NCBI GenBank assembly: GCA_020437365.1
Contig: JAGQWM010000001.1
Location: forward strand, 1-64,000
Source of the DNA: Chitinophagaceae bacterium
GTDB lineage: Bacteria; Bacteroidota; Bacteroidia; Chitinophagales; Chitinophagaceae
Direction: 5' to 3'
Length of the DNA stretch: 64,000 nt
Notes under the pieces: generated by a model
What the model saw: only the letters and a program-made list of their open reading frames with translations
The model's database searches: none
Told to the model about the DNA's origin: nothing
Translations under genes and position numbers: made by a program
Shown: positions 38,410-41,064 of the stretch, in pieces
How the letters are laid out: every line of letters starts with the position of its first letter
Position numbering within the stretch: position 1 is the first letter of the stretch

Positions 38410-38428
38410 TGGTTTAGTTTTAGTCTGT

Positions 38429-38436
38429 CAAAAATA
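38429..38436 (-). promoter_or_regulatory. -7 box of the DUF47-PiT operon
   Basis: TATTTTTG on the minus strand, 19 bases before the ATG at 38409; a CTTTC element lies about 21 bases further upstream. Confidence 0.45.
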
Positions 38437-38782
38437 AACTCGGTGTTTATATTTACGAAAGTTATTTTCAATTGCCAGCAGGGTTTATCCCTCCACTTTC
38501 GTTATAAGGTTTTAAAATTAAGGCTATCATCCGACTTCGACGCCAATATCCTTTTATTTTTTTAAAATTTTGCTAAATAATCGATTTGTATGTGGTACAT
38601 GATTTCAATTTGATGTTTTGCAAATTCACAAATGGTATAATTGTGCAGGCAACGATTATCTTCAGCTTTAAACATTGCAAAGTCAATCAAACGCAATAAA
38701 TTTTTTCAGGCAGACAGCGAATCCGGGATCCGAATCGTCCTATGCAACAATAGATTAACTGGCTTTTTCGGGAAAGCCTTCC

Positions 38783-38790
38783 TAACTTTG
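38783..38790 (+). promoter_or_regulatory. -7 box of the 753-residue secreted protein gene
   Basis: TAACTTTG, 12 bases before the ATG at 38803. It shows that the frame upstream of 38803 is not translated. Confidence 0.55.
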
Positions 38791-38802
38791 CAACATTGCC
38801 TT

Positions 38803-41064
38803 ATGATGAAATATGTAAAATATTATATTGTTTGTTTATTTCTTCTGTCTGCTCAATTCATTTCAGCACAAGGATTGAGCGTTTCAGATACGCTGACTAT
38901 TCCGGCCAATTTCAAACCCGAATTCAAGCGGCAGTTGAATCATGACAAAATAGATGCGGAGCAAAAAAGGATTTTAGCATCAGACGGCAAAGCCGATAGT
39001 TTTTTCAATATTTCAGATAATGAAGAAATTAACTATCTCGCTACACAGGCATTGACAAAAAAAGTAGATGTATTACAATATTTAATTGAAACCGATACTT
39101 TACTCGACCATCGCCTGAAAGTAAAATATTTATATGGCCTCGAAAGTGTGTTGAAATATTTTTCGCTTGCATCGCAACTTACTACCGATAAAAAAGTCAA
39201 CCCGGTAGGTTTGCCCATTATTATTCGTTCTTATGAAGAATGTGTCAATCAAGATAAAATACACCAATCCATTGAACCCATAATAGAAAAACTACCTTAC
39301 GATGTGGGTATTGCCGTATTGGGTGCCGATATTTTTGAAAATAATAAGGGTTATACCGATGCCAGAAATAACCTGGTGTTGAAATTCTGCACATTGCATC
39401 CGGAAAAAATGTTGGCTACACTGATGGATAATCCGGGCATGCCATTTGCCGACAGTCTTGTTCGGGCAATCGACAAAATGAAATTTGCCAAACAATTATA
39501 CGATTACTCGCAAGCCAATAATTCATTGGGCCGCATCATCAGAAGTATCAATGATGATAAATTTATTCGTACAATTGTGCAGATGGCCAAGAGCAGAAGC
39601 GGCCAACAATATTTCCCTTTTCTCGACAATATTGTCAGTGGAAAACTCACTATCGCCGATATAGATGAAGTAAAAAATGATTCCTTATTGTATTATCGGT
39701 TGTTGGTAAAAACAGAAATGGATTATGCCGGCCGTTTGTTGAATAAAGACACGGCATTTGAATATAAATCATTATCGAAACGATTAGTGGATAAAGCCAA
39801 AGCCAGTTTTGTCAATATCATCAACGGATTGCATACTGAAGCAGCAAGTGTCCGATTCAAATGTATTCAACCATTGACGGCAGAAGAATTGTATTACCTC
39901 GCTGTTTCTTCTGATGGTTCTATTTATACTTCCAGTTTTGTGAAAGGTGTATTTCCATTGATGATGAAGAAAATTAATTACCGTGGCGATTCTTTATTAA
40001 TGTTATTGCATTTCGATAAATACCGCAAGTTTATCAAAATGTCGGCCGGCTTCAATACATTGAGTACCTTTTTAAGTTCATTTCCACAACCACAAAACCC
40101 CGGCGAAGAGAGTTATGCGGAAAAGCTGATGAAAGCTTTTGTAGGCAAATTAGAACAAGGCGATGGCCTGGAAGATGGTGTAGATGTAGCGGATTCTTAT
40201 GCCAGCATTGAAGAATCCATCAAACCATTGGCAGTGCAAATGCTCAAAAATGTAGAAGATAATTATGAACGCAATAAAAAAGCCGGCAATAAAAGAGGCA
40301 TGGCCATTTATAATATTTTACGCAATCTTTTTCTTTCTGCCGATACAGCCAATCATGTTGATTTGACTAAAGTGCTGGGCATTCCACCTATTTATGAAAT
40401 GCCTTATAAATCATTGGTCAATAAAAACGGACAAGTCGTGATGCAAGTCTTTTTTTATGGCGATAAAGACGGACAAGGAATTTTCAGGGGTTTTGTGCGA
40501 ATGTTTCAAAACCGTAATTGGCAAATTGATGAATCGAATAAACAATGGGTAAAAATTACATCGGCCAACGGAAAGCCGGTTATCATTTTTGCCAATAGGG
40601 CATTGCCGGAAGAACTGGGCGAAGATGAACAAGCCCAAAAAGCTTTGCACAAATACATGGAACAAAATCAACTATTCCCAACCGTTACCATTCACCGCGG
40701 GCATAGTTATTATGCCGATGCCACCATCAGCCAGATGTTTCCCAGTTCCAAAATAGTTTTTCTCGGTTCCTGTGGCGGTTATCATCTCATTCATGATGTA
40801 TTGGCCAAAGCCGACGATGCACATATCATTGCTTCCAAACAAATTGGTGCTACTGAAGTCAACCGGCCGTTTTTTCAATTGCTGGCTGATAAAGTACGGA
40901 CAGGTCAAAACATCGATTGGATTCCTTTTTGGGAAGAATTAGATAGAATGGTGGCGGCCCGTGAGTTTGAAGATTATATACCGCCGTATAAAAACCTGGG
41001 AGCTTTATTTATCAAGGCATATAAAATTGCCATGGGTGAAGAAGCAGAACCCAAATCCTTTTAA
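38803..41064 (+). CDS. Large exported protein of unknown function with a possible caspase-like C-terminal dyad
   Basis: I start this at ATG 38803, after a -7 box and directly before a signal peptide (MMKYVKYYIVCLFLLSAQFISAQ); the frame is open 54 codons further upstream but is non-coding there. The 753-residue protein is mostly helical up to about residue 570, with repeat-like segments. The C-terminal ~150 residues look like an alpha/beta domain: VMQVFFYGDKDGQGIFRGFV, PVIIFAN, then TVTIHRGHSYY (H631, H634) and KIVFLGSCGGYH (C657). His-Gly/Ser and Cys-Gly ends of adjacent strands recall clan-CD peptidases (caspase, gingipain, CHAT). The 23-residue spacing is short. Otherwise unrecognised. Confidence 0.6.
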   Translation: MMKYVKYYIVCLFLLSAQFISAQGLSVSDTLTIPANFKPEFKRQLNHDKIDAEQKRILASDGKADSFFNISDNEEINYLATQALTKKVDVLQYLIETDTLLDHRLKVKYLYGLESVLKYFSLASQLTTDKKVNPVGLPIIIRSYEECVNQDKIHQSIEPIIEKLPYDVGIAVLGADIFENNKGYTDARNNLVLKFCTLHPEKMLATLMDNPGMPFADSLVRAIDKMKFAKQLYDYSQANNSLGRIIRSINDDKFIRTIVQMAKSRSGQQYFPFLDNIVSGKLTIADIDEVKNDSLLYYRLLVKTEMDYAGRLLNKDTAFEYKSLSKRLVDKAKASFVNIINGLHTEAASVRFKCIQPLTAEELYYLAVSSDGSIYTSSFVKGVFPLMMKKINYRGDSLLMLLHFDKYRKFIKMSAGFNTLSTFLSSFPQPQNPGEESYAEKLMKAFVGKLEQGDGLEDGVDVADSYASIEESIKPLAVQMLKNVEDNYERNKKAGNKRGMAIYNILRNLFLSADTANHVDLTKVLGIPPIYEMPYKSLVNKNGQVVMQVFFYGDKDGQGIFRGFVRMFQNRNWQIDESNKQWVKITSANGKPVIIFANRALPEELGEDEQAQKALHKYMEQNQLFPTVTIHRGHSYYADATISQMFPSSKIVFLGSCGGYHLIHDVLAKADDAHIIASKQIGATEVNRPFFQLLADKVRTGQNIDWIPFWEELDRMVAAREFEDYIPPYKNLGALFIKAYKIAMGEEAEPKSF

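Follow-up and report, generated by a model that had tools for sequence, protein, structure and literature searches.

The locus analysed here raises the question of what kind of enzyme, if any, forms the C-terminal part of a predicted exported protein of 753 residues. The protein is encoded in a 64,000-nucleotide stretch of a Chitinophagaceae genome (the window), and near its end it carries a histidine/cysteine motif that had led the initial annotation to propose a divergent peptidase of clan CD, the clan of caspases and gingipains, or an inactive relative of one. The source texts accessible to our literature search, in part only, contained nothing on this His/Cys domain family or on a caspase-type peptidase in Chitinophagaceae.

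Gene, protein and distribution

The protein is divided as follows (window coordinates):

38803..41064, plus strand: complete gene including the stop codon (coding 38803-41061); predicted exported product of 753 residues, translated without internal stop
38803..38871, plus strand: signal-peptide-like start, residues 1-23 (...FISAQ/G; no lipobox), seen in the sequence and as helix 4-22 in the full-length model
38914..40389, plus strand: long helical stretch, residues 38-529, modelled with low confidence as entirely alpha-helical
40390..41061, plus strand: putative clan-CD-like C-terminal domain, residues 530-753, covered by alignment A1 (107 sequences) and modelled with seven strands and alternating helices

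The frame is open from a TTG codon at 38641 to 41064 on the plus strand. The signal-peptide-like start sits at 38803, and the ATG at this position, from which the 753 residues are counted, is most likely the start codon; folding of the region upstream of the gene revealed nothing unusual. Judged by its sequence pattern, the N terminus resembles a Sec signal peptide ending SAQ/G. Of 107 homologue ORFs, a crude script found 90 with a similar start; the remaining 17 include ORFs cut by contig ends. Together with the modelled helix 4-22, these starts support the exported location that had been claimed. The long helical scaffold proposed for the middle of the protein agrees with the full-length model, which is of low confidence (pLDDT 48). 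In an alignment of this region (A4, 35 sequences) the mean column identity is 30%. A Pfam search of the full-length protein at E values up to 10 gave just two sub-threshold chance matches, and searches of NCBIfam, PADLOC and PDB sequences with the window protein gave no match.

Of 298 genomes sampled from the order, 128 encode homologues that match the protein in length and layout (E ≤ 0.001). Within the protein's own family, 83 of 85 sampled genomes carry it (counted from the match table), and the window's own genome has one copy. A further 45 matching genomes belong to other families of the order, and most of these have two adjacent copies of ~700 and ~1000 residues; such tandems of a short and a long copy are seen, for example, at loci L054, L059, L061/L232 and L058. 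When a phylum-wide sample of 395 genomes was searched with the domain profile, all 14 matches fell into the own family. A broader profile applied to a class-wide sample of 395 genomes retrieved, at E < 1e-60, nine matches in the own family, ten in family f120 and three in family f125; no other class-wide match was better than E 7.5e-4, and these remaining ones seem to be chance matches. Outside these groups, four Azospirillum proteins encoded in plasmid records, where they are annotated "hypothetical protein", matched at E 1e-24 to 1e-27 with 28–32% identity over the domain. Viral contigs contained no relative, and phage records none at E 0.1.

Conservation of the His/Cys motif

The conserved positions of the domain are listed below, with counts among 162 domain sequences of the order, all distinct:

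40456..40473, plus strand: acidic loop after predicted strand 1, residues 552-557 (Y-G-D-K-D-G); D554 161/162, D556 159/162
40693..40707, plus strand: His motif H631-R632-G633-H634-S635 at the predicted end of the His strand; H631, R632, G633 and S635 162/162, H634 158/162
40765..40779, plus strand: Cys motif G655-S656-C657-G658-G659 at the predicted end of the next strand; G655, C657 and G658 162/162, S656 160, G659 148 (S or A in the remaining sequences)
40834..40863, plus strand: loop after predicted strand 5, residues 678-687 (SKQIGATEVN), a possible substrate-pocket loop; N687 161/162, K or R at 679 in 162/162
40918..40932, plus strand: W706 (162/162) and W710 (161/162)
40975..40995, plus strand: Y725-I-P-P728-Y-K-N731; Y725, P728 and N731 162/162

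Translation reproduced the His and Cys strings exactly as they had been described: TVTIHRGHSYY holds H631 (40693-40695) and H634 (40702-40704), and KIVFLGSCGGYH holds C657 (40771-40773), which lies 23 residues from H634 and 26 from H631, the two ends of the spacing given initially. The motif is real and far beyond chance. In alignment A1 (the window protein and 106 others) the invariant columns are H631, R632, G633, S635, G655, C657, G658, W706, Y725, P728 and N731, and seven of these eleven lie within the ten residues of HRGHS and GSCGG, out of 224 (hypergeometric P ~7e-9).

Conservation of the proposed dyad extends well beyond the order. HRGHS and GSCGG, and with them H634 and C657, are present in every one of the 13 relatives that belong to other families of the class and in all four Azospirillum proteins. 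The latter also keep D554, D556, G557, N687, W706, W710, Y725 and P728; N731 is found in one of the four, and position 679 is occupied by Q or S, which places K679 outside any universal mechanism. An alignment of 47 sequences selected from the order, class and Azospirillum sets, including all four Azospirillum proteins (A5), is invariant at D554, D556, G557, H631, R632, G633, S635, G655, S656, C657, G658, N687, W706, W710, Y725 and P728. The distance between H634 and C657 is equally constant: it is 23 in 161 of 162 sequences of the order (22 in one), in 17 of 17 class loci (the 13 and four own-family repeats) and in all four proteins from Azospirillum.

Two other assignments of these residues were tried and rejected. 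Weak matches to EF-hand models occurred in 7 of 107 members (best 0.0025 among related models), and D-x-D-G is present in the acidic loop, but by eye the full EF-hand loop is absent. The G655-S656-C657-G658-G659 turn has the look of the nucleophile elbow of an alpha/beta hydrolase with a cysteine nucleophile. A triad of the alpha/beta-hydrolase or amidotransferase type needs a catalytic histidine after the cysteine, but no histidine downstream of C657 is conserved at 90% or more in A1.

H631 is conserved more strictly than H634 (162 versus 158 of 162), which bears on what the site may do. H631, H634, C657 and D554/D556 might bind a metal or form the centre of a thiol enzyme other than a peptidase in a similar alpha/beta domain. 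Two conserved histidines three residues apart, together with a cysteine and an aspartate at the ends of predicted parallel strands, would suit a metal, and H631, C657 (both 162/162) and D554 (161/162) all recur in Azospirillum. We nevertheless consider such a centre, the leading alternative to a clan-CD-like peptidase, doubtful, given that H634 is leucine (three sequences) or tyrosine (one) in four otherwise well-kept paralogues and that the GSCGG turn resembles the site of a nucleophile more than that of a metal ligand.

The same four sequences all retain C657; each is the long copy in a tandem pair and lies upstream of its partner, and three of them carry Arg-Asn at 679/680. Their sequences suggest that the long copy without H634 is an inactive partner. 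The existence of such copies could be taken to mean that the domain, although of clan-CD-like fold, is generally non-catalytic and retains the site for structure or binding. This is quite unlikely, as only 4 of 162 sequences are concerned, arising from two or so events and both times in the long upstream copy, while the whole site is kept everywhere else, across two phyla.

Predicted fold and comparison with clan CD families

Structure models were built on alignments of four sequences. The domain model (pLDDT 69.2, pTM 0.72) was reached by two of five models, the others scoring 47–52. It is laid out as strand, helix, three strands, helix, His strand, helix, Cys strand, helix, strand, helix (in domain numbering b16-21, a26-37, b44-47, b53-58, b64-69, a78-92, b99-102, a109-116, b122-125, a130-140, b145-149, a159-170), and it predicts that His and Cys lie where two neighbouring strands end. 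Strands 628-631 and 651-654 are placed immediately before His and Cys in two independent models of low to moderate confidence.

The domain model, and not the full-length one, was used for fold comparison. Against the PDB, Foldseek returned one match at E < 0.001, to a G protein chain, the others listed being small GTPases and other alpha/beta folds, with TM-scores by query length of at most 0.32. The best VIA-align match (Gtr1p, Z 6.9) is under the level that the tool counts as meaningful, and comparison with viral structure models again pointed to GTPases. No clan CD peptidase was among the 50 Foldseek and VIA-align matches listed or among the viral-model matches listed, a result compatible with the thiol or metal centre considered above. 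The comparison is not decisive because the models rest on just four sequences; it neither establishes a clan CD fold nor rules one out, and according to the search tool itself a hit missing from the list is no proof of absence.

These matches would speak for a GTPase-like or other generic alpha/beta domain in which the His/Cys motif has nothing to do with catalysis. P-loop GTPases carry the phosphate-binding loop GxxxxGK[ST] after strand 1. Here the corresponding loop reads YGDKDGQGIF, with D554, D556 and G557 conserved instead, and no GxxxxGK[ST] stretch occurs in the sequence; the invariant residues of the domain are His, Cys and Asp, and the TM-scores by query length are at most 0.38 among the matches listed. 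A GTPase-like domain is thus very improbable.

Clan CD peptidases have a central sheet of six strands, one of them antiparallel, in which His and Cys sit at the C-terminal ends of the adjacent parallel strands 3 and 4. The order of the strands was addressed by mean-field coupling analysis of the 162 sequences (115 effective), in which all 2520 orders of seven strands were scored. The best order, b2-b3-b4-b1-bHis-bCys-b5, scored 7.03 against 6.45 for the runner-up; the signals of single strand pairs are weak, the weakest link (b1-bHis) exceeding background by 0.09 sd. Adjacency of the His and Cys strands comes from this weak co-variation. P-loop GTPases have the same strand order, and it therefore supports a caspase-like arrangement only jointly with the conserved residues. 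The b4-b1-bHis-bCys core of the order equals 2-1-3-4, given as the core of the caspase fold in the part of a review available to us (PMC4357240).

According to the same part of that review, clan CD peptidases have His before Cys, a glycine beside the catalytic His, and both residues following the ends of successive strands (PMC4357240). Both H634 and C657 are present in 158 of 162 sequences, in this order, and G633, directly before position 634, is present in all 162. Since the clan CD glycine adjoins the catalytic His, the pair G633-H634 fits this role and H631 does not.

Comparison with the individual clan CD families gave the following picture. Pfam models of C25, C14, CHAT and C11 had no match at E up to 1 in the 107 members, among the 25 families listed, and none in the full window protein or the four Azospirillum proteins. 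Profile–profile comparison, with profiles from 29 of 30 C25, 26 of 30 CHAT, 22 of 30 C14 and 3 of 8 C11 loci, gave scores no better than column-shuffled controls; the known families scored poorly against each other too, save C14 with C11 (67%), and the comparison was therefore counted neither for nor against the clan-CD-like reading. A PDB profile search found nothing with A1 and three chance matches (E ≥ 0.69) with A5.

CHAT peptidases (PF12770) likewise have two conserved histidines in the His strand, His before Cys, and a Cys strand ending in a turn rich in small residues (by eye, IIHLATHG and LVVLSACQTG, against VTIHRGHS and IVFLGSCGGY here). Their second His, kept in 25 of 26 domains, lies four residues earlier. 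A second histidine in this strand is therefore not foreign to clan CD, which also weakens the case for a metal centre. Unlike the domain described here, CHAT domains have a His-Cys spacing of 43-82, the CHAT model matches 0 of 107 members, and the profile comparison is at noise level. Gingipain- and PorU-type C25 peptidases (PF01364) share the adjacent G-H pair, are exported proteins of Bacteroidota and have the shortest spacing measured among known families, but this spacing (34) is 11 residues longer than that seen here, and neither a Pfam match nor profile similarity was found. In C14 (PF00656; caspases, metacaspases and orthocaspases) the order G-H-[GS] ... Cys is the same, and the strand order proposed from co-variation contains the caspase core; by contrast, the spacing is 42-68 in 21 sequences, and Pfam gave no match. 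With clostripain (C11), as described in the accessible part of the review (PMC4357240), the modelled domain shares additional strands flanking the core sheet and, after Cys, a helix followed by a strand; the review also gives a spacing of 46 for PmC11 (His133-Cys179). There was no Pfam match to C11, and hhalign, with a profile from just three of eight C11 loci, remained at noise level.

The spacing of 23 had been noted as shorter than usual, and it is indeed below all yardsticks measured in genomes of the same class: 34 in C25 (29 of 29), 43-82 in CHAT (26 sequences) and 42-68 in C14. The domain family is thus more compact than these. Caspases have a small beta-hairpin region after the His strand and before the helix that follows, and this may be the part that is missing here. 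For RgpB the available part of the review prints His221 but names Gly210 and Gly212 beside it (PMC4357240); the earlier figure of ~33 for the RgpB spacing corresponds to His211. Elsewhere in the window's own genome, Pfam models do recognise members of known families, with one match for C25, three for CHAT and four for C14 (G000: C95, C88, C80, C74, C91, C97, C55 and C101).

Gene neighbourhood and proposed function

Upstream of the gene, the opposite strand encodes a DUF47 (PhoU_div) protein and a phosphate transporter; an ABC transporter (Pfam) lies downstream, and beyond it ATP synthase genes were recognised from the sequence. Divergently oriented genes for an OmpR-type regulator and a HisKA kinase (types from Pfam) adjoin the gene in 20 of 24 loci of the own family, and in other families of the order a regulator is nearby in 7 of 17 loci. 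This pair is absent from the window (38410-38802; compared with L208-L227), where the remaining order (DUF47, phosphate transporter, epimerase) is identical to that of L222 and L223. A same-genus genome and L211 share 74% identity in the regulator, against 38% for the best match in the window's own genome; the best kinase match there is 36% (draft genome, 161 contigs). From these values the pair seems to have been lost from this draft genome, with the gene of interest surviving. Families f120 and f125 and Azospirillum have different gene neighbours: the pair is a conserved neighbour at none of the 13 class loci from other families and at no Azospirillum locus, L317 having an unrelated-looking regulator (36%) further off. 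A two-component link was therefore kept out of the mechanism.

Other neighbours recur in particular groups. In 9 of 17 loci (L228, L231, L234-L236, L238-L240 and L242) the tandem pair has as a neighbour a small lipoprotein-like protein of ~165 residues, for which Pfam gave no match. In 11 of the 13 loci of f120 and f125 (L313-L325) the neighbouring gene falls into one shared cluster, and by its sequence it looks like an RNA methyltransferase.

Given that the His and the Cys are almost never changed, the ~220 residues at the C terminus probably form a compact relative of the caspase-type proteases. We put the probability that they represent a new compact clan-CD-like family of exported cysteine peptidases at roughly 60%. 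The initial proposal of a clan-CD-like peptidase is thus supported in part, by the strong conservation, the order of the dyad and the glycine beside the His, but neither the fold comparison nor the known family profiles gave it a counterpart. C657, predicted to follow one parallel strand, would act as the nucleophile and be activated by H634, predicted to follow the strand next to it, with G633 and the GSCGG turn shaping the oxyanion site. The acidic loop with D554/D556 and loop 678-687 may line a substrate pocket or hold the His, and the 490-residue helical region may present substrates or restrain the enzyme; the substrates would be located in the periplasm. In clan CD, loop L1/helix 1 supplies part of the P1 specificity, as stated in the part of the review at hand (PMC4357240). 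D554/D556, which follow strand 1, would sit at that site, and it is tempting to speculate that an acidic loop there suits a basic P1 residue.

Less probably, the domain would define a new class of exported thiol enzymes outside clan CD, namely an alpha/beta domain whose site consists of His, His, Cys and Asp, perhaps assisted by a metal, and that is kept across Bacteroidota and Azospirillum and exists in one group as tandem active and partly degenerate copies. We regard this as unlikely. Nearly every sampled genome of its own family encodes the domain, yet it is nameless in every library searched. If it is a clan CD peptidase, as we favour, C657 and H634 offer a clear point of attack for studying the role of such an exported enzyme in these bacteria, and the domain adds to this clan a family whose His-Cys connection is more compact than in those measured.
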